Source: an uncultured Gammaproteobacteria bacterium (lineage in GTDB: Bacteria > Pseudomonadota > Gammaproteobacteria > Arenicellales > JAANXG01). From it: a stretch of 64,000 nt of DNA. Each line of letters starts with the position of its first letter. Position 1 is the stretch's first letter. Below, piece after piece: positions 15,393-51,310 of this stretch. The notes under the pieces were generated by a model. The model was given only the letters and a program-made list of their open reading frames with translations, searched no databases and was not told where the DNA came from. The translations under genes and the position numbers were made by a program. The DNA lies in assembly GCA_947258975.1 (NCBI GenBank), contig CAMYKK010000002.1, positions 62,001 to 126,000 of the forward strand, given 5' to 3'.

Positions 15393-15695
15393 TTACGGGC
15401 TACTTTTTTTTTTAGCCTTTCGTTTCGTCGCTTTCTTCTTAGTAGCCTTTTTCTTGGTAGCCTTTTTCTTGGTAGCCTTTTTCTTGGTAGCCTTTTTCTT
15501 GGTAGCCTTCTTTTTGGCCTTTTTCTTGGTGGCCTTCTTTTTGGCCTTTTTCTTCGTTGCTTTCTTCTTCGTTGCCTTCTTCTTCGTTGCTTTCTTCTTC
15601 GTTGCCTTCTTCTTCGTTGCCTTCTTCTTCGTTGCCTTTTTCTTCGTTGCCTTCTTCTTCGTTGCCTTCTTCTTAGCTCGTTTCTTTACTGCCAT
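15393..15695 (-). CDS. Histone H1-like lysine-repeat protein
   Basis: A 100-residue protein starting 'MAVKKRAKKKATKKKAT', with about 15 KKKAT pentapeptides interrupted by a few KKKA and one KRKA, ending 'KKKSSP'. Such very basic K/A/T-repeat proteins resemble the C-terminal tail of histone H1, and bacterial counterparts such as the tail of AlgP/Hc-type proteins. They bind DNA without sequence specificity. AGGAG precedes the ATG at 15695 with normal spacing. The coding DNA is a run of 15-base direct repeats, so length probably varies between strains by slippage. It is a single gene between a strong terminator and an AT-rich gap. The role (nucleoid compaction, transcription) is inferred from composition. 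The opposite strand also reads open but encodes only a Phe/Leu repeat and is a shadow. Confidence 0.75.
   Translation of the reverse strand: MAVKKRAKKKATKKKATKKKATKKKATKKKATKKKATKKKATKKKATKKKAKKKATKKKAKKKATKKKATKKKATKKKATKKKATKKKATKRKAKKKSSP
15450..15675. repeat. Tandem 12-15 base repeats encoding KKKAT/KKKA
   Basis: Two blocks of direct repeats lie inside the lysine-repeat gene. The left block reads 'cttggtagcctttt' and the right block reads 'cttcgttgccttctt', i.e. the same peptide with different synonymous codons. The 15-base periodicity is broken at the two KKKA units (12 bases). Different codon use in the halves suggests two separate expansion events. Confidence 0.8.
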
Positions 15696-16370
15696 GACGC
15701 ATCTCCTATCTATAGGTTAGGAAAACAAGAAAACACTCACCATCATGCAATCACCCAACGATATAACCCTCTGAAATCACTGAGAAAAACAGGTTCAGAG
15801 CAAGTCGTAGAAAGATGGGGATGGAAACACGAGAGGTGAATGGGGTGACCCAACCGGTGTTGCCACTCGGTTAGCATCATATTTCTCGTTGTTAAGGTAA
15901 CCAATATTTTAATGTTATCCCGCGTATAGGTTTCGTTTGCATCCTTACAAAATTGCGGCAGTCCAACTATGCCAACTAACGCTGACCTTTGCGGTTTCCT
16001 TTTCAAACTCCGACTACTACCTATTCGAAGTCATGCGGAAAATATATTCACGCGTGTACAAATGTCAAGCAAAAATACAACAAAACAAAATTTATTTTGT
16101 TTTTTTACAACAGCGATTCTTACTTACTGCGTCGCATTGAATGTCTCCAACAACAAATCAATGCGATTCTTCTTGTGCGCACCGACCTTATAAACCGTCA
16201 ACTTGTCATTGTTTATTCACGACAATTATCAACGAAGGCGCGAACAAAAAACATCTGCACGTCACTATTATTGGACCTGCCATGGCTAATCCGGATCAGA
16301 TTGAATGAACAAACGGCTAGTTCGGCACTTGTAAGAGTGCGAATCAACGTAAGCACGCAATACCAACCGC
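15696..16370. other. AT-rich 675-base intergenic region without a supported gene
   Basis: Base composition falls sharply compared with the flanks, most strongly at about 15990-16260. An AT hairpin, AAAACAAAAT (16082-16091) with ATTTTGTTTT (16094-16103), is followed by a short T-run. Open frames on the plus strand have no initiation signal, overlap the 3' end of cbbO, and match nothing I know. It should contain the promoter of the lysine-repeat gene near 15700-15760. The region may be an old insertion or a regulatory AT tract; nothing identifies it. Confidence 0.5.
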
Positions 16371-18512
16371 TTACGTTGTCAGATGCCGGTATATGTCAGA
16401 CACCTTCAGAGGTAACTTTCTCACCTCGTCGATCAGCACATAGTTGACGGCACCATACATCCTTGGCAAATAATCGTGGGCCTCGGTGTCGATGGTTATA
16501 CAAAATGGAAAAATGCCTTGATGTTTCGCTTCAATCAGGGCTTGACGTGTGTCCTCGATGCCATATTCACCACGATAGCCGTCGTAATCATCTGGCTTGC
16601 CGTCCGACAACGTAATCAGCAACTTGGTACGGGCCTCGACGTCCGCCAGCAAACCACTCAAATGACGAATTATGACGCCCATACGGGTGTAATCCTGGGG
16701 GCGAATTGCGGCGATTCGCCGCTTTACCGGGTCCGCGTAGTGCTCGTCAAACCGCTTAATACGATAGAGTTCACACCGCTTACGCGTCATTCCCGAGAAC
16801 CCATATATTGCGTAGCGGTCGCCTAGAATCTCCAACGCCTCGCACAATAATACCAGCGCTTCCCGCTCAGCATCATTAATCCATCCTTTCGTTGAACCGC
16901 TCATATCCACCATGAAGATCACAGCCATATCACGCTCCAGATTTCGGTGCTTGGTAAACAGGCGCTCAGACATTTCCAATCCAACATGCATGTCGGCGTA
17001 CGCCTCTACGACCGCATCCAGGTCGATGTCATCGCCGTGTATCTGTTTCTTAAGAATACGATCCTCGCCACGCAACGCCTCGAAGGTCCTCCGTAATCCG
17101 GATATCAATCCCCGGTAGCGACTCAGCACCTCGTCCACATAACGCTCCTCACTGGGGTGTAGCTCGATCTCTCTCAACACGCACCAATCCTTGCGGTAGT
17201 GTTGACGGCGAAAATCCCACTCGTTGTACAACCAGGCGCCCTCCTCGTGATATGCGCGCTCCCAGACGCTCGGGGCCGGCTGATCGCTTCCCGGCACGAG
17301 CTGGTAGGCCCCGTCACCGGCCGCCACCAGATACTCGTCAGGGATCTCCCCGAAGTCTTGCAGAATCGAGCGGGATAGGGCGCGAATTTCCTCGGGCGGT
17401 GTTACCGGTCGGCCGTCTAGTGTCCATTCGATTTGCGGATCGTGCAGTCCATCCTGAGACGGTGGCCAAGTGGCCTGTAAGCGAGGTGGGATCGAGGCAC
17501 GTGCGGGACCGGCCGCGTTCGCCTCCAGCTTGTGGTCCATGAGCCGCAAGTTCTCATGGAACGCGTGTTTTTCGCGGTCCTGACGGGCGCGTATCGCCGC
17601 CTCAGCGCTTTCAAGCATCAACCTGCCCTGGAAACAGAATGGCGGCGGAAGGTGCCCCTCGTCGGCATACAAATGCTGCAGCGCTCGAATCGTATCGCGA
17701 ACCGTTGCGTCCGGCGCCTGCAAGCGATGCACGGCGTCCGTCCAGTTTGTCGCATAGCGAATCTCCGCTTGTTCGCTCTGCAGGGCCATCATTTCCCGGT
17801 ACAGGCCGGGTAATCCGCGTTCAATGCACGCGTTTAGACGCGCCGTTTCCAGGGCATGGAACAAGCGAGTGGCGCGTTCTGGATCTGCATAGCTGCCGCA
17901 CACATTGACCAAGCTCACCAACCCCTCTGGCACGCGAAAGGTACCGAACCAGGTTTGCGCCCACAGATGTGAAGCCATCGCCTTGTACAAGCCGAAATTT
18001 TTCTGACGCGTGCGAAACAAGCGCAAACGTCGAGGCAGGTACAGATGCTCGGTGTCCGTGTACACGATCTCGTTTGGCTGCAGCTTGAGTGCACGACCCG
18101 CGAGCCCATGCACGTAATGCTCTAACACGCTCACCACATCCTCGAAATTCAGGACGAACTCCCGCAGATGGAGATCCGCGGCGAATTGCTCGACAGCCTG
18201 AACATTGGCGCAGCCGGGATACAAGCCTTGTTTGTCGTACACATCCATGAATTGGATGATCCATTTCTCGACACCGTGAAGATCCATGAGTCGGAGCGCG
18301 TCGGGGGCCTGGCTGGCGAACTGATAGCCCATCTCGGAATTGGTCCGCACGATTACGCTTATCCAATGAAGTACGAAGTCTTGTTGCCCACGGGAGAATA
18401 TTGACAACGCTTGGGCCGGCGCTTCTGCGGTTCGCCGTGTCGACAGCACAGGATCGAGATATTCCTCTAGGCGATGCTCCAGTTGTTCGAATGTAAGAGG
18501 ACGTTTGGACAT
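16371..18512 (-). CDS. cbbO: CbbO/NorD-type VWA protein (MoxR partner)
   Basis: A protein of about 713 residues from the ATG at 18512; a GTG at 18557 would add 15 residues. The first 450 residues are the helical CbbO/NorD N-terminal region. The last 220 form a von Willebrand factor A domain with the metal-adhesion motif 'VDMSGSTKG' (DxSxS), then 'RYAIYGFSG', 'YTRMGVIIRHL' and 'LLITLSDGKPDDYDG'. These proteins work with a MoxR-type AAA+ ATPase. CbbO tethers the CbbQ hexamer to RuBisCO for removal of inhibitors, and NorD helps assemble NO reductase. The gene follows its AAA+ partner with a gap of about 113 bases. CbbQ-like features of the partner and the sulfur-oxidiser context favour CbbO over NorD, but no RuBisCO or nor genes are in the window. 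Confidence 0.8.
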   Translation of the reverse strand: MSKRPLTFEQLEHRLEEYLDPVLSTRRTAEAPAQALSIFSRGQQDFVLHWISVIVRTNSEMGYQFASQAPDALRLMDLHGVEKWIIQFMDVYDKQGLYPGCANVQAVEQFAADLHLREFVLNFEDVVSVLEHYVHGLAGRALKLQPNEIVYTDTEHLYLPRRLRLFRTRQKNFGLYKAMASHLWAQTWFGTFRVPEGLVSLVNVCGSYADPERATRLFHALETARLNACIERGLPGLYREMMALQSEQAEIRYATNWTDAVHRLQAPDATVRDTIRALQHLYADEGHLPPPFCFQGRLMLESAEAAIRARQDREKHAFHENLRLMDHKLEANAAGPARASIPPRLQATWPPSQDGLHDPQIEWTLDGRPVTPPEEIRALSRSILQDFGEIPDEYLVAAGDGAYQLVPGSDQPAPSVWERAYHEEGAWLYNEWDFRRQHYRKDWCVLREIELHPSEERYVDEVLSRYRGLISGLRRTFEALRGEDRILKKQIHGDDIDLDAVVEAYADMHVGLEMSERLFTKHRNLERDMAVIFMVDMSGSTKGWINDAEREALVLLCEALEILGDRYAIYGFSGMTRKRCELYRIKRFDEHYADPVKRRIAAIRPQDYTRMGVIIRHLSGLLADVEARTKLLITLSDGKPDDYDGYRGEYGIEDTRQALIEAKHQGIFPFCITIDTEAHDYLPRMYGAVNYVLIDEVRKLPLKVSDIYRHLTT

Positions 18513-18625
18513 GTAGGGGTGGACAGATGACTCCAATGTATCAAGTGTACCGCGCACAAAATCAACAAGTTTCCCGCAACGCGGAAAGCGTTGTTTACAA
18601 GCAAATAATTTGTGTGTTCAGGCTG

Positions 18626-19438
18626 TTAAAACAACGAAGCCGAAAGTTCGTTCATCGCTGACAACATTTCCGGATCATCGGAAAGCGCCTCGGACACCGC
18701 GCCACGACAAGCGATGCCGGGATCGATGCCGGCGACGATAAGTTTCGCGGCATGCACTAACAATCGCGTGCTTGCCCCTTCGTCCAATCCGCTCCCTTTC
18801 AAATTACGAGTCATGCGCGCATACTTCACCAACTTTTCGGCTACATCCTGATGCAAACTCGATTCGTTCGTCACGATAGTCCGCTCCAATTCCGGCGGCG
18901 GATAATCGAACTCTATGGCCACAAATCGCTGCCTCGTACTCTGCTTCAGATCTTTGAGGACACTTTGGTATCCCGGGTTGTATGAGATCCCGAGACAAAA
19001 TTCCGGCGGCGCCTGCAACAATTCTCCGGTCTTTTCCATGGGCAGTACCCGCCGGTCGTCGGCGAGTGGATGAATGACCACCGTAGTGTCTTTCCGGGCC
19101 TCAACGATCTCATCCAAATAACATACGCCTCCAATGCGCACGGCATGGGCCAAGGGGCCGTCCACCCAGCGGGTTTCGCCTCCGATAATCAAATATCGCC
19201 CAACCAAGTCAGACGCGGTAAGATCGTCATGGCAGGAAACCGTGATCAATGGCCGGCGCAGCCGCCACGCCATATGCTCCATGAAACGCGTCTTGCCACA
19301 GCCAGTCGGGCCTTTTAACAAGACCGGGATCTGATTGGCGTACGCGGCTTCGAACAGCGCGATCTCTGCGCCCTGCGGTTCATAATAGGGCTGTTCCTTC
19401 ACGAAGTGCTCTGCTGTCTTAAAGGCCTGGGGATCCAC
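18626..19438 (-). CDS. cbbQ: CbbQ/NorQ-type AAA+ ATPase
   Basis: A 270-residue MoxR-family AAA+ protein starting with GTG. Walker A 'LLKGPTGCGKTRFMEHMAW' is at about residue 36-54, Walker B in 'GVCYLDEIVEARKDTT', and sensor region 'LGISYNPGYQSVLKDLKQST' with the arginine of 'TRQRFVAIEFDYP'. The C-terminal CbbQ domain reads 'RNLKGSGLDEGASTRLLVHA'. The sequence pattern 'DLTASDLVGRYLI...DGPL' is that of CbbQ of chemoautotrophs. The hexamer uses ATP to remodel its target with CbbO. It is the first gene of a two-gene operon and diverges from qmoA. Confidence 0.88.
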   Translation of the reverse strand: MDPQAFKTAEHFVKEQPYYEPQGAEIALFEAAYANQIPVLLKGPTGCGKTRFMEHMAWRLRRPLITVSCHDDLTASDLVGRYLIIGGETRWVDGPLAHAVRIGGVCYLDEIVEARKDTTVVIHPLADDRRVLPMEKTGELLQAPPEFCLGISYNPGYQSVLKDLKQSTRQRFVAIEFDYPPPELERTIVTNESSLHQDVAEKLVKYARMTRNLKGSGLDEGASTRLLVHAAKLIVAGIDPGIACRGAVSEALSDDPEMLSAMNELSASLF

Positions 19439-19723: not shown

Positions 19724-21016
19724 ATGACCGATATGGTCGCAACCAATGAAACGATCTTGGTAGTAGGAGGAGGCATCAGCGGCCTGACCGCCGCGTTGGA
19801 GGCCGCGGAGTGCGGCAAAAACGTGGTGCTGGTGGAGAAAAACCCCTCCGTTGGCGGACGCGTAGCACAGCTATATAAATATTTTCCCAAGCTTTGCCGG
19901 CCAAGCTGTGGCCAGGAAATAAATCTGCGTCGGCTCAAAGCCAACAAAAGAATCCGACTGCTGACGATGGCCGAAGTTAGGAACGTTAGCGGCACGGCCG
20001 GAGATTATGACGTCTCCATCACCATCCGGCCCCGTTACGTGAACGATAATTGCACTGCTTGTGGCGCCTGCGCACAGGCGGTTACGACGGAGATCGACGA
20101 TCCATTCAATTACAACATGAAAAAGATCAAAGCCGCTTACTTGCCCTATAACATGGCCTATCCACAGCGCTATGTGATTGATCCGTCAATCGTTGGCAGC
20201 GAGGAAGCGAGCAAGGCGAAAGCTGCTTGCGCGTACGACGCCATCGATCTCGAAATGCAAGAACAGACGATCGCGATCAAAGCGGGCGCCGTGATATGGG
20301 CGACGGGTTGGCGGCCCTATGATGCAGCCAAGATTCAGCCGTATGGTTATGATCGCTATCCCAATGTGATCACCAGCGTCGAGTTCGAGCGTATGATGGA
20401 CCCCTTTGGTCCCACCGGCGGTAAGATATTGCGTCCCTTCGACGGCAACGAGGCCAAGAACATTGCCTTCATCCAGTGCGCCGGATCACGGGACCGGAAC
20501 CACCTGACCCATTGCTCACGGATCTGCTGTATGGCCTCGCTCAAGCAATCGACATATATTGGTGAACAATACAGTGGTGACGCTGACGCCAGGGCCACAA
20601 TTTATTACATCGACATCCGCGCCATCGACCGGTTTGAGGACTTTTACCGAAAGGTCCAGGCGGACGAAAAAGTCCATTTCATAAAGTCCAAGGTGGCCAA
20701 TATCACCGAGAACCGGGAATCCGGTGATGTCGTGCTCCACGGCGTCGATACCGAGGGTTATCACCGCTACGACAATACCCACGATCTGTGTGTGCTGGCG
20801 ATCGGCATGGAACCCAGCGTTAGGGCTGACCAGATAGCCGCCAACGTGTCCGCGGATGTCAGCGGTTTTATGCAAATGGATGCGGCCAACGGGGCTATCT
20901 ACGGTGCCGGCTGCGCCACCAATGCCTTGGACGTCAACCGAGCAGTGCAGAGCGCCACAGCGGCGGCGCTGCGCGCCATCCAAGTCGTCAATCGTGTATC
21001 GAGCGCGGAGGCCTGA
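19724..21016 (+). CDS. qmoA: QmoA, HdrA-like FAD subunit of the APS reductase-linked oxidoreductase
   Basis: A 430-residue HdrA-like flavoprotein. The FAD-binding 'ILVVGGGISGLTAALEAAE' is at residues 11-29, followed by 'VVLVEKNPSVGGRVAQLYK' and 'CRPSCGQEINLRRL'. An iron-sulfur ligand cluster 'NCTACGACAQ' lies at about residue 108, and 'GAVIWATGWRPYD', 'FIQCAGSRDRNH' and 'SRICCMASLKQ' are typical of QmoA/HdrA. It is too short to be a full HdrA with two ferredoxin clusters, which is the QmoA pattern. In sulfate reducers Qmo passes quinol electrons to AprBA; in sulfur oxidisers the flow is thought to run from AprBA to quinones. It is the first gene of a tight operon, with qmoB starting 4 bases after its stop. 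Confidence 0.92.
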   Translation: MTDMVATNETILVVGGGISGLTAALEAAECGKNVVLVEKNPSVGGRVAQLYKYFPKLCRPSCGQEINLRRLKANKRIRLLTMAEVRNVSGTAGDYDVSITIRPRYVNDNCTACGACAQAVTTEIDDPFNYNMKKIKAAYLPYNMAYPQRYVIDPSIVGSEEASKAKAACAYDAIDLEMQEQTIAIKAGAVIWATGWRPYDAAKIQPYGYDRYPNVITSVEFERMMDPFGPTGGKILRPFDGNEAKNIAFIQCAGSRDRNHLTHCSRICCMASLKQSTYIGEQYSGDADARATIYYIDIRAIDRFEDFYRKVQADEKVHFIKSKVANITENRESGDVVLHGVDTEGYHRYDNTHDLCVLAIGMEPSVRADQIAANVSADVSGFMQMDAANGAIYGAGCATNALDVNRAVQSATAAALRAIQVVNRVSSAEA

Positions 21017-21020
21017 AACA

Positions 21021-23282
21021 ATGTCTGAAAAAAAGACCGCGGTGTATGTGTGTCGGGGTTGTGGTATCGGCAACCGCTTAGATACCGATCAACTGGCCAA
21101 GATCGCCGAGAGCGAAGGCAAATGCTCCCTGGTACGTCAGCACGATTTCCTATGCAATGCAGACGGCGTCAGCACCATTCGCAATGACATCGACGGCGAA
21201 GGCGTCACCCACGTGGTGATAGCAGCCTGTTCACGCCGCGCCAAAACCGACGCCTTTGGATTCGATGACGTGGCGCTTGGGCGCGCAAATCTGCGTGAGG
21301 GAATCATTTGGGTGCGCCCCGATACCGAAGAGGCCCGAGAAACCACCCAGGAGATGGCCGACGATTTTCTGCGCATGGCGTGCGCGGAGATTCAATACAT
21401 CAAACAACCCGATACCAATCAGAATGCGGGCACCAACAAGAACATCCTGGTTGTAGGGGGGGGTGTCAGCGGCATGACCGCGGCAATCGAGGCGTCCAAG
21501 GCCGGGTACGGAATATTACTGGTCGAAAAGACCGGCCAACTCGGCGGCTGGGCGGCAAAGCTGCACAAACGCGTGCCCGATCGCGAGCCGTTCGCGGATC
21601 CAGTTGATGCCGGTGTGAGCGATCTGGTGAAGTCCGTGGAGTACGAGAAGAACATTAACGTGTTCTTGAACAGCTCGATCACCCGAACCAGCGGCGCCCC
21701 TGGACAGTTCAGCGTGGATATCAGCGCTGAAAGCGGTGAGACGGTGACCGAAAACGTTGGCAGCATTATCCAGGCCAGCGGCTTTTCCGGTTACGACGCC
21801 AACCAATTGCCCGAGTTAGGCTACGGAAAGAGCCCGGATGTAATCGATCAAGCGGAGCTGGAGCAATTGGCGATACAGGCCGCAGACGGCCCTATCAAGC
21901 GTCCGTCGGACGGTAAGGAAGTCGAGAGTGTCGTCTTTGTTCAATGCGCGGGCCAGCGCAGTGACGAACCGGGCCATCTCCCCTACTGTTCCGGTCATTG
22001 CTGCAATACCAGCATCAAACAAGCGATGTATTTCAAGGACGCGAACCCCAACGTCGATACTGTAGTGATTTTCGATGACCTGCGCACGCCGGGTAATGGC
22101 GAAGACTTCTATCGTTCGGCGCAACGAAAGGGGGTTATCTTTACCAAAGGCAAGCCTCAGCAAGTGAGCCCCGTCGATGGCCAATTGGAAGTGAAATTTC
22201 ACGACATGATCCTGAACGACGAGGCGGCGGCAACGGCAGACCTGGTCGTATTGGCTACCGGTCAAATCCCCAATTCGGGCGTAGACATTGAGCCCGCGGC
22301 AATGCAGGAAGTTGAGGATGGCGGCGGGGAGTCTGCGGCCCAGGCGGAGACCGAAACCCGCGAGGTGCAAATTCCCGTGGAATCCATACTCAACCTCACG
22401 TACCGTCAGGGTGTTGATTTGCCCCATCTGCGCCATGGGTTCAGCGACTCTCATTTCATATGTTTTCCTTATGAAACCCAGCGTAGCGGGATCTATACCT
22501 GCGGTCCGGTTCGACGTCCAATGGACATTGCGCAAACGATGGAAGACGCAACCGGCGCCGCCCTCAAATCGATCCAAGCGGTGGAAAATGCCGTGTTGGG
22601 ACGCGCTGCTCACCCACGCTCCGGCGATCTGAGTTTCCCGAGCTTCCGCCGCGAGGGATGCACACAATGCAAGCGGTGCACGGTGGAGTGCCCGTTCGGC
22701 GCCATCGATGAAGACGAACAACGTTATCCGCTATTCAATGAGTCTCGATGCCGGCGTTGCGGGACCTGCATGGGTGCGTGCCCGGTCCGAGTAATTTCAT
22801 TCGACAATTATTCCGTCGACACCGTTGGACAACAGATCAAGTCGGTGAACATGCCCGATGAGTTCGACGAAAAGCCGCGAATTCTTATCCTCGCCTGCGA
22901 GAACGACGCCTACCCGGCGCTTGATATGGCAGCCCAACAGGGGTTGGAGTACAGCGCCTTCGTTCGCATCGTACCGGTGCGCTGTCTCGGCTCGGTAAAC
23001 ACCATCTGGGTCACCGACGCCCTGAACAGCGGTTATGACGGTGTTATGTTGATGGGTTGCAAAAAGGGTGACGACTACCAGTGCCATTTTGTGAAGGGCT
23101 CGGAACTGGCGCACTATCGCATGAGTAAGATCGACGATACATTACAGCAGCTACAACTCGAGCCCGAGCGAGTAGAGATCTACGAAGTGGAAATCACCGA
23201 CATCCAAAGAGTGCCGGCGCTCATAAACGAGTACGCGGCCAAGATCGATGAAATCGGAATGAACCCGTTCAAGGGGTTCTGA
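21021..23282 (+). CDS. qmoB: QmoB, HdrA/MvhD-like flavo-iron-sulfur subunit
   Basis: A 753-residue protein; I choose the ATG at 21021, directly after qmoA, because the open frame upstream only overlaps qmoA. Domains in order: an N-terminal region with 'VYVCRGCGIGNRLDTDQLA' and 'HVVIAACSRRAKTD'; an FAD domain from about residue 140 ('ILVVGGGVSGMTAAIEAS', 'LVEKTGQLGGWAAKL', 'FVQCAGQRSDEPGHLPYCSG'); and two [4Fe-4S] motifs at about residues 547-590 ('CTQCKRCTVECP', 'CRRCGTCMGACP'). Last comes a MvhD-like domain from about 613, with 'CENDAYPALDMA' and 'DGVMLMGCKKGDDYQC'. This is the full QmoB arrangement. It probably forms the flavin core with QmoA and exchanges electrons with AprBA or HdrCB. Confidence 0.93.
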   Translation: MSEKKTAVYVCRGCGIGNRLDTDQLAKIAESEGKCSLVRQHDFLCNADGVSTIRNDIDGEGVTHVVIAACSRRAKTDAFGFDDVALGRANLREGIIWVRPDTEEARETTQEMADDFLRMACAEIQYIKQPDTNQNAGTNKNILVVGGGVSGMTAAIEASKAGYGILLVEKTGQLGGWAAKLHKRVPDREPFADPVDAGVSDLVKSVEYEKNINVFLNSSITRTSGAPGQFSVDISAESGETVTENVGSIIQASGFSGYDANQLPELGYGKSPDVIDQAELEQLAIQAADGPIKRPSDGKEVESVVFVQCAGQRSDEPGHLPYCSGHCCNTSIKQAMYFKDANPNVDTVVIFDDLRTPGNGEDFYRSAQRKGVIFTKGKPQQVSPVDGQLEVKFHDMILNDEAAATADLVVLATGQIPNSGVDIEPAAMQEVEDGGGESAAQAETETREVQIPVESILNLTYRQGVDLPHLRHGFSDSHFICFPYETQRSGIYTCGPVRRPMDIAQTMEDATGAALKSIQAVENAVLGRAAHPRSGDLSFPSFRREGCTQCKRCTVECPFGAIDEDEQRYPLFNESRCRRCGTCMGACPVRVISFDNYSVDTVGQQIKSVNMPDEFDEKPRILILACENDAYPALDMAAQQGLEYSAFVRIVPVRCLGSVNTIWVTDALNSGYDGVMLMGCKKGDDYQCHFVKGSELAHYRMSKIDDTLQQLQLEPERVEIYEVEITDIQRVPALINEYAAKIDEIGMNPFKGF

Positions 23283-23296
23283 GCAGGAGAAATGAC

Positions 23297-23920
23297 ATGA
23301 GTGACGTCAACACCGCCATGGTCCAGAAATATCGTAACGATTTCCTCAAAGAAGTCGAAGAAAATGTTGAAGAAGGCCATTGGGTGAAGATGTGCATGCA
23401 GTGCGGAGTGTGTTCGGGCTCTTGCCCATTCGGACCTCACTGGGATCATCCGCCCCAGGAGATCTTCATGATGATCCGGGCGGGAAAACGTGACGAGGTT
23501 TTGACCACCGAGTCGATGTGGATGTGCACATCTTGTTACAACTGTATCGTTCGTTGTCCACGCGAACTGCCGATAACCCACATCATGCATGGGCTGGCGA
23601 ATTATGCCCACCGCCTTGGAATCGCCCCAAAGATGAATCCGACACGCCGCTTTGCCGGAATTTTCTGGAACAATATCGCCAAGACCGGGCGCGTCAACGA
23701 ATTAGCGCTGTCGCTGAAATTATATTTCATGGATGGTTTCATGAGCGGTATCAAGAAGGGACTGGCGATGATGAGTGTCGGTATCGGTATGATCAAGACA
23801 AAACGATTAAATCCGTTCGCGCTTATTAGCCATAAAGGCGTGAAGAATCCTAAAGAGCTTCATGTGCTGCTAAAAAAGGCTCGGGAGATCGAAGACCGCC
23901 GCAAGGGTATAGCCAGTTAA
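23297..23920 (+). CDS. hdrC: HdrC-like bis-[4Fe-4S] subunit in the qmo operon
   Basis: A 207-residue soluble iron-sulfur protein with two complete CxxCxxCxxxCP motifs: Cys33/36/39/43 ('CMQCGVCSGSCP') and Cys77/80/83/87 ('CTSCYNCIVRCP'). The C-terminal part has amphipathic helices but no convincing set of transmembrane segments. In classical Qmo, the third subunit QmoC fuses an HdrC-like ferredoxin part to a membrane cytochrome b; here only the ferredoxin part is present. AGGAGA precedes the ATG, and the start is 14 bases after qmoB. It should relay electrons between QmoAB and HdrB. The same split arrangement is known from some Gram-positive sulfate reducers. Confidence 0.9.
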   Translation: MSDVNTAMVQKYRNDFLKEVEENVEEGHWVKMCMQCGVCSGSCPFGPHWDHPPQEIFMMIRAGKRDEVLTTESMWMCTSCYNCIVRCPRELPITHIMHGLANYAHRLGIAPKMNPTRRFAGIFWNNIAKTGRVNELALSLKLYFMDGFMSGIKKGLAMMSVGIGMIKTKRLNPFALISHKGVKNPKELHVLLKKAREIEDRRKGIAS

Positions 23921-23932
23921 CGGGAGTTCGTC

Positions 23933-24838
23933 ATGGCCAAGAAAGAATATTCGTTTTATCCGGGATGTAGCTCGGAACGTAAGGCATCAGCATCCAATTA
24001 TATGGTGTCAGTTGAAGCGATGTGCGAAAAACTGGATATCAAGCTGAATGAGATCCCTGATTGGAATTGCTGCGGAGCATCGATCGGCTACGCCGAGGGA
24101 GGAGAGTTACCGCGTCATGTCATGAATGCGAGAAACATCGCGTTGTCCGAACAGAACAACCCCGGTCAAGACATAGTCGCTACCTGCGCCGCGTGTTGGC
24201 TTGGCGCCAAAGAGACCGCTGATCGCCTCGATGCTTGCGAACAACTGCTCGCGGATACCAAGGAAGTCCTCCAACAAGCAGGACTCGATATCCACTTGAA
24301 AAACGAGACGCCGATTCGGCACATGGTGGAAGTCTTGATTGAAGACATCGGCTATGAAGGAATAAAAGAACCGATGGTAAAACCGTTGGAAGGAATCAAG
24401 TTCGCTGGGTATGTGGGGTGCCAAACCAACAGGCCGTTCGGTGTTGACGGTGAGTCCTTCGAAAACCCCATGTATCTGGATAAGATGGTGGAGACCGTCG
24501 GCGGTGAAGCAATCACAAACTATGAAAAAAAGGTCACGTGCTGCGGCGGTGCGCTCGCGTTCTCGGAACCGGAAAAGAGTCAAAAACAGATCAAGGAGAT
24601 CATTGAGGCTGCATACGATCAGGGCGCCGACATGATCGTAACCCCATGCCCGGTATGTCAGATGAATGTTGAGGTGTATCAGGATCAAATTAATAAGCAC
24701 TATGGAACCAAATTCCATATCCCGGTGACGTACTACAGCCAGTTGTTGACGGTTGCTTACGGCGGCAGCGCCAAAGAGGCGGGCCTCAACGGCAATATCA
24801 TCCGCGCCAAGCGGCTCGAGGACATCGCCGCGAAATAG
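23933..24838 (+). CDS. hdrB: HdrB-like CCG-domain subunit in the qmo operon
   Basis: A 301-residue heterodisulfide reductase B-type protein. It has two CCG domains, each with a full cysteine set: Cys12, Cys46-47 and Cys85/88 ('GCSS', 'NCCGAS', 'CAAC'), then Cys163, Cys203-204 and Cys239/242 ('GCQT', 'TCCGGA', 'CPVC'). In HdrB these bind the unusual noncubane [4Fe-4S] clusters that cleave disulfides. The gene starts 12 bases after hdrC, so it is translated from the same message. All ligands are intact, so an active catalytic site is expected. The electron donor or acceptor could be a disulfide/thiol pair, a small protein such as DsrC, or a quinone enzyme; the sequence does not decide this. Confidence 0.92.
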   Translation: MAKKEYSFYPGCSSERKASASNYMVSVEAMCEKLDIKLNEIPDWNCCGASIGYAEGGELPRHVMNARNIALSEQNNPGQDIVATCAACWLGAKETADRLDACEQLLADTKEVLQQAGLDIHLKNETPIRHMVEVLIEDIGYEGIKEPMVKPLEGIKFAGYVGCQTNRPFGVDGESFENPMYLDKMVETVGGEAITNYEKKVTCCGGALAFSEPEKSQKQIKEIIEAAYDQGADMIVTPCPVCQMNVEVYQDQINKHYGTKFHIPVTYYSQLLTVAYGGSAKEAGLNGNIIRAKRLEDIAAK

Positions 24839-48782: not shown

Positions 48783-50750
48783 CTAAACCGGACTACCGTC
48801 CCTTGCAAGGCCCTCCGGCTCACTCTCGCCGTCGTACTTGACCAGTTGCTTGTACTGCACCTTTTTCAGGCTCCATTCGCCGGTGTCGCGGTTATAAGTG
48901 GAATTTACGAAGCATTTCCAGTTGTCATCATCCAAGTCCAAAAAATCCATGCGGTAGTAATAACCCGGGTAACGGGTTTCCTCGCGGAACTGGATATGCC
49001 GCATATGCGCTTCCGCCGCTAGGATCCGGTGATAGTTCTCCCACGCCCGCAGCAGCTCGTGCAGGTCCTTGGCACGCATCTTCTGGGCGTCCTCGCGGAT
49101 CATCACCAGTTTCTTCTCCGCGATTTCCAGCATCTTGGCGTTGGTCTGATACCAGGTCGAGACACCCGCTACGTATTCGTCCATGATCTTCTGCAGGCGG
49201 AACTGCAGCATCTTGGGGGTAATGTAGTGGGGATTCACGTCGATCGCGGTGGTGTAGTCTTTGTGCTCGAGGTAGGTCTTGACCGGGCGGTAAATCTCTT
49301 CCACCAATTCATCGACAGTGCGCGACATCTCGGGTTTCCAATCCTTGTTGTCCATGGCGTATTTCAACATCGCCTTGGCCGCGATACGGCCCTCGGCGTG
49401 CGAGCCGGATGAGAACTTATGACCCGAGGCACCGACGCCGTCTCCCGCGGTGAACAGTCCTTTCACCGTGGTCATGCGGTTGTAGCCCCAATGGTAGTAA
49501 TCCGGGGTTCCCGGGATATCGTCGGGACCTGAGCACCAGATCCCCGCACAACCTGCATGCGAACCAAGAAGATACGGCTCGGTTGGCATCAATTCGGACA
49601 TCTCTTTATCCGGCTCGATATTCTCACCGGCCCACACCCCGCATTGAGCGATGGTCATGTCCAGAAAGTCCTCCCACGCCTCGGCCTCCAGGTGTTTGAC
49701 CTCCTTGGGGGTCATGGTCTCGGCGAGTTTTGCCATGGCGGTGGGGGTATCCATCAAGATCGGACCCCGTCCCTCTCGCATTTCCTTCATCATCAGGTGG
49801 TTGCGCAGGCAGGTGCCCATCTTCATGCCGTCTGCATAGGTATCGTACTTGTTATCCGCAAGGATGCTGTAGTTTTTCGTTTGATAATCTTCACCGAACG
49901 CGTTCATCGCCTGAGCCTTGAACAGCAGGAACCATGCGCCGACCGGACCATAACCGTCTTTGAACCGTGCCGGGACGAAACGGTTTTCCATCAAGGTCAA
50001 CTCCGCCCCGCATTCCGCCGCCATCGCGTAGGTGGATCCCGCATTCCATACCGGGTACCAGGCGCGGCCGGTGCCCTCGCCCACGGAACGGGGACGGAAG
50101 ACGTTCACAGCGCCGCCTGCGGCGAGCAGGCAAGCTTTGAACTTGTAGATGAAAAGCTTGTTGTCGCGAACGCTGAAACCGGCGGCACCCGAGACTCGCG
50201 TGGGGTCGTTCTTATCAGTAACGAGGCGCACGATAAACACGCGCTCTTCAATCCGGTCCATGCCCAGGGCTTTTTTGGCTGCTTCAGCCACGATCCACTT
50301 GTAGGATTCTCCGTTGATCATGATTTGCCAACGGCCGGAACGCACTGGTTTACCACCCTCGGTCAGTTTCTTACTCTCGTCACCCTTTTGCTTCCAGATA
50401 GGCAGGCCCCATTCCTCGAAATTATGCACCGAGTCATCGACATGACGGCCGACGTCGTAAACGAGGTCTTCGCGCACAATGCCCATGAGGTCGCCACGTA
50501 CATACCGAACGTAGTCAGCGGGATCGTTTTCGCCCATGTAGGTATTTATTGCGGACAGGCCCTGCGCTACCGCGCCGGATCGATCCAGCGCTGCCTTGTC
50601 GACCAACTTCACTTTCAGGTCAGGCATCTTCTCCAGCCAGCGGCCGATTTCAAATGCCGCGCCACAGGACGCCATACCGCCTCCAATGAGGAGGATATCA
50701 ACTTCCTCCTCGATGATCTCCGGATTACCGAAACCGTATTCTTCAGCCAT
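48783..50750 (-). CDS. aprA: Adenylylsulfate reductase alpha subunit
   Basis: A 655-residue FAD subunit of dissimilatory APS reductase, which interconverts APS with sulfite plus AMP; in sulfur oxidisers it runs towards APS. I start at the ATG at 50750, preceded by GAGGAAGAATTA, rather than at 50783. The FAD-binding 'VDILLIGGGMASCGAAFEIG' is at about residue 18, and 'VKLVDKAALDRSGAVAQGLS', 'GRWQIMINGESYKWIVAEAA', 'LRNHLMMKEMREGRGPILMD' and 'AGDGVGASGHKFSSGSHAEG' are all AprA signatures. The length is near the usual 620-660. It follows aprB in an aprBA operon, ends at a strong terminator, and has no AprM gene beside it. Confidence 0.98.
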   Translation of the reverse strand: MAEEYGFGNPEIIEEEVDILLIGGGMASCGAAFEIGRWLEKMPDLKVKLVDKAALDRSGAVAQGLSAINTYMGENDPADYVRYVRGDLMGIVREDLVYDVGRHVDDSVHNFEEWGLPIWKQKGDESKKLTEGGKPVRSGRWQIMINGESYKWIVAEAAKKALGMDRIEERVFIVRLVTDKNDPTRVSGAAGFSVRDNKLFIYKFKACLLAAGGAVNVFRPRSVGEGTGRAWYPVWNAGSTYAMAAECGAELTLMENRFVPARFKDGYGPVGAWFLLFKAQAMNAFGEDYQTKNYSILADNKYDTYADGMKMGTCLRNHLMMKEMREGRGPILMDTPTAMAKLAETMTPKEVKHLEAEAWEDFLDMTIAQCGVWAGENIEPDKEMSELMPTEPYLLGSHAGCAGIWCSGPDDIPGTPDYYHWGYNRMTTVKGLFTAGDGVGASGHKFSSGSHAEGRIAAKAMLKYAMDNKDWKPEMSRTVDELVEEIYRPVKTYLEHKDYTTAIDVNPHYITPKMLQFRLQKIMDEYVAGVSTWYQTNAKMLEIAEKKLVMIREDAQKMRAKDLHELLRAWENYHRILAAEAHMRHIQFREETRYPGYYYRMDFLDLDDDNWKCFVNSTYNRDTGEWSLKKVQYKQLVKYDGESEPEGLARDGSPV

Positions 50751-50845
50751 TAATTCTTCCTCAATACGTAGTTGGTAAAGCACACTGCCACGCCGCTAAC
50801 CCTAAGCGTCGTCTTGCGTGGTAGGGCCATTGTAATCAGTTCGTT

Positions 50846-51310
50846 TTACGCCGCGCCGAACTGACTCATATCACAGGAATGCGTGCTCTTGGTAAACAGG
50901 GTCGCGTGATCCGTAAGCTCGTCCAGGTTTGCGTCGGGTTTCGCACCATACGGATCAATCGAGCCTTCCGCGGTAGTTCGAATCGGGAATTTGAAACGTT
51001 TCATCGTGCCATTACGAAACTTAATCGTCCACATGATTGACTCAGTCCCCCGCAACGGCTGCACAGAGGCGCCCAGCGGAACTACATCTGCGTAATGACG
51101 ACACTCGATAGCCTGCTGGGGACAAATCTTCACGCAACTGTAGCACTCCCAGCATTGCTCTGGCTCTTGGTTGTAAGCCTTCATCGCGTGGCCAGTCTCT
51201 GATCCGTCTTTATCCAAACGCATGAGATCGTGGGGGCAGATATACATACACGCGGTCTTGTCCTGACCTTTGCAGCCGTCGCATTTATCAGTTCGTACAA
51301 ATGTAGGCAT
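50846..51310 (-). CDS. aprB: Adenylylsulfate reductase beta subunit
   Basis: A 154-residue iron-sulfur subunit with two [4Fe-4S] motifs: 'CDGCKGQDKTACMYICP' (the first with the AprB-specific insertion) and 'CWECYSCVKICP'. The C-terminal tail that wraps around AprA is present ('MWTIKFRNGTMKRFKFP', 'DELTDHATLF'). GGAGAG precedes the ATG at 51310. aprA begins about 95 bases after its stop. Electrons from the AprA flavin leave through these clusters, probably to QmoAB. Confidence 0.98.
   Translation of the reverse strand: MPTFVRTDKCDGCKGQDKTACMYICPHDLMRLDKDGSETGHAMKAYNQEPEQCWECYSCVKICPQQAIECRHYADVVPLGASVQPLRGTESIMWTIKFRNGTMKRFKFPIRTTAEGSIDPYGAKPDANLDELTDHATLFTKSTHSCDMSQFGAA

Follow-up and report, generated by a model that had tools for sequence, protein, structure and literature searches.

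The question raised by this locus is which acceptor takes the electrons of APS reductase (AprBA) in an organism whose qmoA and qmoB genes are followed by hdrC and hdrB in place of qmoC, the gene of the membrane subunit. The window, that is, the whole stretch of 64,000 nucleotides analysed here, comes from an uncultured gammaproteobacterium of the order Arenicellales, and holds qmoA, qmoB, hdrC and hdrB in tandem on the plus strand at positions 19724-24838 (Table 1). The ORF coordinates bear out the order and the gaps of 4, 14 and 12 bases given by the original prediction; the start of qmoB was set at the ATG at 21021, which has a GGAGG upstream, and the listed ORF begins at 20856. The reading favoured here, with a probability of roughly 60%, is that this operon encodes QmoABHdrCB, a known QmoC-free form of the complex that partners APS reductase, with quinone as the likeliest acceptor.

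Table 1. Genes, motifs and domains of the operon, its divergent neighbours and the APS reductase genes in the window
Feature	Position	Strand	Description
CbbQ-gene partner	16371..18557	-	728 aa; CbbO-like by position; not thought part of the complex
CbbQ-type AAA+ gene	18626..19438	-	divergent neighbour of qmoA; not thought part of the complex
qmoA	19724..21016	+	430 aa; HdrA-like FAD protein
qmoB	21021..23282	+	753 aa; HdrA-like FAD domain, two 4Fe-4S motifs, C-terminal MvhD/FlpD
QmoB, two CxxCxxCxxxC [4Fe-4S] motifs	22659..22781	+	residues 547-587
QmoB, FlpD/MvhD domain	22881..23258	+	residues 621-746; PF02662, E 2.8e-39
hdrC	23297..23920	+	207 aa; soluble ferredoxin-type subunit
HdrC, two CxxCxxCxxxC motifs	23393..23557	+	cysteines invariant in 28/28 sequences
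hdrB	23933..24838	+	301 aa; two-domain CCG protein
HdrB, first cluster motif (C12, C46C47, C85xxC88)	23966..24196	+	cysteines invariant in 30/30 sequences
HdrB, second cluster motif (C163, C203C204, C239xxC242)	24419..24658	+	cysteines invariant in 30/30 sequences
aprA	48783..50783	-	TIGR02061, 949 bits; sole aprA match in the genome; qmo-tracking type
aprB	50846..51310	-	TIGR02060, 195 bits

Regarding the proteins, QmoA (about residues 5-419) aligns with HdrA of solved Hdr complexes, as does QmoB. No transmembrane segment was detected by hydropathy in QmoA, QmoB, HdrC or HdrB, whose top 19-residue Kyte-Doolittle means are 1.51 (at the Rossmann motif), 1.26, 1.19 and 0.65, respectively; the same holds for the 30 HdrB and 28 HdrC sequences compared. 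HdrC matches HdrC and the soluble half of QmoC, and the qmoC model, NF038018, covers its ferredoxin part only (residues 15-106, 54 of 300 bits); the membrane part is missing from the operon, as had been predicted. A structure model of HdrC was dropped (confidence 71, TM-score 0.43).

As for HdrB, it has two CX33-39CCX34-37CxxC motifs, and all ten cluster cysteines, the set that CoB-CoM HdrB uses for two noncubane clusters, are invariant in the 30 sequences compared; its predicted model (mean pLDDT 85) has a TM-score of 0.86 to the methanogen HdrB 5odc_B. The two CCG sites had been described as intact: this stands for the cysteines, and for the window protein itself, whose first motif reads CCG, but the third letter of that motif is S in 8/30 and T in 1/30 sequences. 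The window HdrB does not pass the cut-off of the CoB-CoM HdrB model TIGR03288 (151.8 bits, cut-off 345.15) or that of the SdhE model NF042965 (176.7 bits, cut-off 500), which is its highest-scoring NCBIfam model. Both models match all 30 HdrB sequences and the best E-value is that of the HdrB model; thus, SdhE and HdrB scores do not decide function.

A qmoC gene could still have been located elsewhere, and the original prediction advised checking for it. In 109 genomes searched in the order, including the source genome (96% complete), profile searching returned no qmoC above the NF038018 cut-off. In the source genome, no QmoC with fused membrane cytochrome b, as QmoABC would have, was found, which fits QmoABHdrCB, whose carriers are without qmoC; its matches to the model are the operon HdrC (53.5 of 300 bits) and a weak ferredoxin-type match on contig C13 (E 4.4e-4). 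A hidden qmoC was considered and rejected, the matches to NF038018 being HdrC-type ferredoxin parts, AprM-like proteins (positions about 120-357) and a few over positions 63-359. The last type is absent from G000 and lies at a contig end in G005; in G002 it adjoins an ORF that is flavoprotein-like by eye, and we take the two to resemble a TcuAB-type pair.

Regarding the spread of the gene order, qmoB was searched for in 60 genomes (the organism's own and others of its genus, family and order): 22 matched at E 1e-30, 8 of them were dropped as HdrA-like only (30-32% identity), and in all 14 that remained, own genome included, hdrC and hdrB follow qmoB, and in one of them qmoA would lie beyond the contig end. 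A scan of named genomes, overlapping with this set, confirmed at least 553 relatives, and the best 80 of these were examined for gene order. All 80 loci share the order as far as the contigs reach: qmoA was seen before qmoB in 77, and hdrC and hdrB after it in 79 and 73, respectively, each absence being at a contig end. The best 80 include records named Thiobacillus, Sulfuricella, Thiomargarita, Parabeggiatoa, Sulfuricaulis and Spongiihabitans, and the closest QmoB sequences among the matches listed are from uncultured gammaproteobacterial MAGs (80-91% identity). The use of this cluster in a gammaproteobacterial sulfur oxidiser, singled out as the interesting part in the original prediction, is not supported as unusual, being widespread in gamma- and betaproteobacterial records and already in print.

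The spacing of these genes bears on whether HdrCB belongs to the Qmo complex at all or partners something else. Among the best 80 of the at least 553 relatives, the gap between qmoB and hdrC has a median of about 14 bases; it exceeds 200 bases in 4/79 loci. In one genome of the order, G074 (locus L242), two other genes intervene. These exceptions would suit a separate HdrCB, but the order kept in all 80 loci to the contig limits, the short median gap and the homology of HdrC to the soluble half of QmoC make a separate partner very improbable. By eye, the two genes of L242 (4112-6033) are HAD-like and, for the 400-aa product, DNA-methylase-like. At another locus, L121, a partial second hdrB-like match (15661-16011, 65% identity) lies about 3 kb downstream of the operon.

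Upstream of the operon, a CbbQ-type gene is divergent from qmoA in 26 of the 64 loci whose upstream sequence exceeds 1.5 kb (best 80 of at least 553); the CbbQ clade of the window (70% identity or more) does not include the RuBisCO-adjacent copy (59%), and 21 of the 37 genomes holding this clade have no RuBisCO match. The 728-aa product of the partner gene has no Pfam or NCBIfam match. A link of this pair to Qmo was rejected, for in qmo-less genomes it adjoins genes for PFK, RpiA, ribonucleotide reductase and others. About 4 kb before qmoA, the minus strand (15393-15695) encodes a protein of 100 aa with lysine/alanine/threonine repeats (KKATKKKAT) that by eye resembles histone H1.

The APS reductase genes lie outside the operon, about 24 kb away, in a source genome of 5.49 Mb (214 contigs) that also has dsrAB, a two-cysteine DsrC and RuBisCO; aprBA, dsrAB and RuBisCO together suggest a sulfur-oxidising autotroph. 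G000 has a second, divergent dsrC-dsrA-dsrB cluster (G000:C3:213760-216622, L238) followed by a 625-aa gene, presumably DsrL-like given its position, and its main dsr cluster is on C6; second dsrA copies also occur in G001, G002, G004, G006 and G011.

The alternative partner of APS reductase, AprM, was sought through the membrane half of NF038018, and matches to it are called AprM-like from their position beside aprA; the source genome has none. At least one AprA type occurs in 68 of the 109 genomes: the first is 74-100% identical to the window AprA (21 genomes) and the second about 47-56% (56 genomes). An AprM-like match adjoins the second type in 50/56 genomes, this search having missed it in the other 6, and the first type in none. 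Conversely, Qmo is present in 12/12 genomes with the first type only, 3/9 with both and 1/47 with the second only, and in no genome without AprA. AprM-like matches occur in 4/16 genomes with Apr and Qmo vs 50/52 with Apr and no Qmo (Fisher p 2e-8, kinship ignored), and both states are found within families f1, f2 and f8. This count leaves out matches to the ferredoxin part of NF038018 only, the 63-359 matches G002:C34, G005:C293, G107:C119 and G074:C131, and also G016:C14 (contig edge, no AprA), G033:C65 and G080:C3:241092; it includes G012:C340, added from a more permissive search and below the threshold of the main one. G074, with a QmoB match in two pieces, was counted as Qmo-positive, and G042, with a qmoA piece at a contig end and no AprA match, as Qmo-negative.

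Judged by this distribution, the operon seems to take the place of AprM. Such an exchange is further supported by G011 (89% complete), where the window's flanking genes are contiguous without the four-gene cassette (L200): no QmoB match was found in this genome, which carries an AprM-like gene and the two AprA types on other contigs. One exception is G005 (90% complete), which has Qmo with the second AprA type only. Six genomes (G006, G011, G022, G035, G048 and G050) have the first AprA type, no QmoB match and an AprM-like gene beside the other AprA. That the source genome has a single AprA match and neither an AprM-like nor a QmoC match speaks for the favoured reading. As in the original prediction, AprBA is the most likely partner of the complex; aprBA is present, and Qmo co-occurs with this AprA type.

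Concerning the mechanism, AprBA would oxidise sulfite and AMP to APS, and the electrons would pass to the QmoAB flavoproteins, on to the ferredoxin clusters of HdrC and then to the two noncubane clusters of HdrB; from here, they would most likely enter the quinone pool, and HdrB would contact the membrane but not cross it. In neighbouring lineages, this role is the one proposed for AprM. Quinone is regarded as the likeliest acceptor from the interchange with a membrane protein and from the potentials, which are near -60 mV for sulfite/APS, about -74 mV for menaquinone, near +100 mV for ubiquinone and near -140 mV for the heterodisulfide, so that the driving force of sulfite/APS suits quinones better than disulfides. 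It is tentatively proposed, as an idea that may well fail, that QmoABHdrCB is a quinone reductase free of transmembrane helices, in which quinone is reduced at the membrane surface by an Hdr-type pair of noncubane clusters that retains every catalytic cysteine, HdrCB being the functional equal of the QmoC cytochrome b and of AprM.

Some support for quinone comes from the weak likeness of HdrB to SdhE, undecided across relatives. SdhE, from the 8-methylmenaquinol:fumarate reductase of Wolinella (E-type SQR), is likewise a ten-cysteine HdrB-like protein with no predicted transmembrane domain, but it works with a fumarate reductase, and the score of the window HdrB is far under the cut-off of this family. 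Against quinone stand the lack of a transmembrane helix by hydropathy and the catalytic cysteines of Hdr, bridging ones included, all ten of which HdrB retains. They are partly replaced in the electron wire EtfD, which has a membrane part of its own that relays electrons from the CCG domains to menaquinone: there, Thr takes the place of one cysteine and His completes the other cluster. In addition, the role of AprM is itself a proposal, G005 keeps qmo with the other AprA type only, and PMC10504309, in its passage on sulfate reducers that lack QmoC, holds that coupling to the membrane by electron transfer is thought impossible in them.

The retained cysteines make disulfide chemistry possible, which leads to the alternative that HdrB is a true disulfide/thiol site, where electrons from AprBA would be handed to a disulfide or trisulfide carrier, DsrC for example, linking sulfite oxidation to the Dsr pathway. 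Besides the ten invariant cysteines and the fold shared with methanogen HdrB, the dsrAB and the two-cysteine DsrC of the source genome favour it. However, disulfides accept electrons from sulfite poorly, and a membrane protein takes the place of the operon in relatives. Furthermore, one genome, G056 (92% complete), has the operon and its AprA type but no dsrA match, and its sole DsrC-family match ends in KQAS...GC and not in KQAC...GC; G074 and G042, of the same genus, keep both C-terminal cysteines of DsrC, and G042 has short dsrA-like pieces only (loci L219 and L232 were left out of this readout of the C-terminus). On balance, a thiol site is unlikely. The original prediction preferred a disulfide carrier over quinone because HdrB is present, and this does not follow: HdrB-like SdhE serves a quinol enzyme, and the window HdrB scores slightly higher with the SdhE model than with the HdrB one, both scores being below the cut-offs, although the best-scoring of the 30 relatives leans towards HdrB.

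The architecture of QmoAB brings in a further alternative, bifurcation or confurcation, in which QmoAB would send some of the sulfite electrons to a low-potential acceptor, either ferredoxin or NAD, and the others via HdrCB to a high-potential one. QmoA and QmoB are both HdrA-like, QmoB has MvhD and ferredoxin domains, and such parts also serve the bifurcating HdrABC-MvhD; these two subunits are also those of canonical QmoABC, so that the HdrCB swap gives bifurcation no special support. The immediate neighbours (the CbbQ-type pair, a HAD phosphatase and SohB) include no handler of NAD or ferredoxin. Although bifurcation has been put forward in published passages on the Qmo/Hdr of symbionts, it is doubtful here.

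QmoABHdrCB as a partner of AprBA is the preferred reading, and published descriptions, cited here for the passages that treat these genes, show that neither the arrangement nor its host range nor the AprM alternative is new. According to PMC4136832, the gammaproteobacterium Thiolapillus has qmoAB-hdrBC, located away from aprAB, and neither AprM nor QmoABC; Thiobacillus denitrificans and some Chlorobi are named there as well. PMC2211403 uses the notation QmoABC/QmoAB(-HdrBC). PMC10504309 assigns QmoABC to Chlorobi and QmoAB-HdrBC or AprM to other sulfur oxidisers, and it also reports the split in Gram-positive sulfate reducers, as stated in the original prediction. AprM is described as functionally complementary to QmoAB/HdrBC (PMC11237559) and as presumably analogous to QmoABC, with which it seldom co-occurs (PMC8269255). 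The genes are listed for the betaproteobacterium Thiobacter (PMC11596669), QmoABHdrCB is proposed as the acceptor for AprAB because aprM is absent (PMC5944118), and it is among the sulfur-oxidation proteins searched for in PMC6397845, their functions being said to have been examined in earlier studies. Finally, a sponge symbiont expresses HdrB, and the electrons are drawn to quinone (PMC10356861). In the portion of the open-licence literature covered, no biochemical test of the electron acceptor of QmoABHdrCB was found, and no work joining QmoABC, cryo-EM and APS reductase.

Compared by published description, the QmoAB-HdrBC/QmoABHdrCB of Thiolapillus brandeum, Thiobacillus denitrificans, Thiodictyon syntrophicum and Ca. 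Taurinisymbion ianthellae has the same gene content, no qmoC and the company of AprBA; Thiolapillus and Thiodictyon also are without aprM, and in Thiolapillus the operon is also apart from aprAB, as in the window. No difference of substance was found, and the window adds one more case, from a genus not yet cultured. QmoA, QmoB and an HdrC-like module are common to the window and to the QmoABC of sulfate reducers and Chlorobi, but the window is without the cytochrome b and has HdrB added. With the methanogen HdrABC-MvhD, the window shares the HdrB fold, the cluster cysteines, the HdrC sequence and the HdrA and MvhD domains, but its HdrA-like parts are in two proteins, its HdrB and HdrC are below the family cut-offs, and the operon has no hydrogenase gene. 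Altogether, the observation behind the original prediction is confirmed, and its interpretation is partly supported and about half right.

In conclusion, QmoABHdrCB is one of two proposed routes that collect the electrons of APS reductase in proteobacterial sulfur oxidisers. What is added here is the order-wide interchange of Qmo with AprM-like genes; together with a genome that has the operon but no dsrA match and no two-cysteine DsrC, this interchange makes the choice between quinone and thiol more directly testable.
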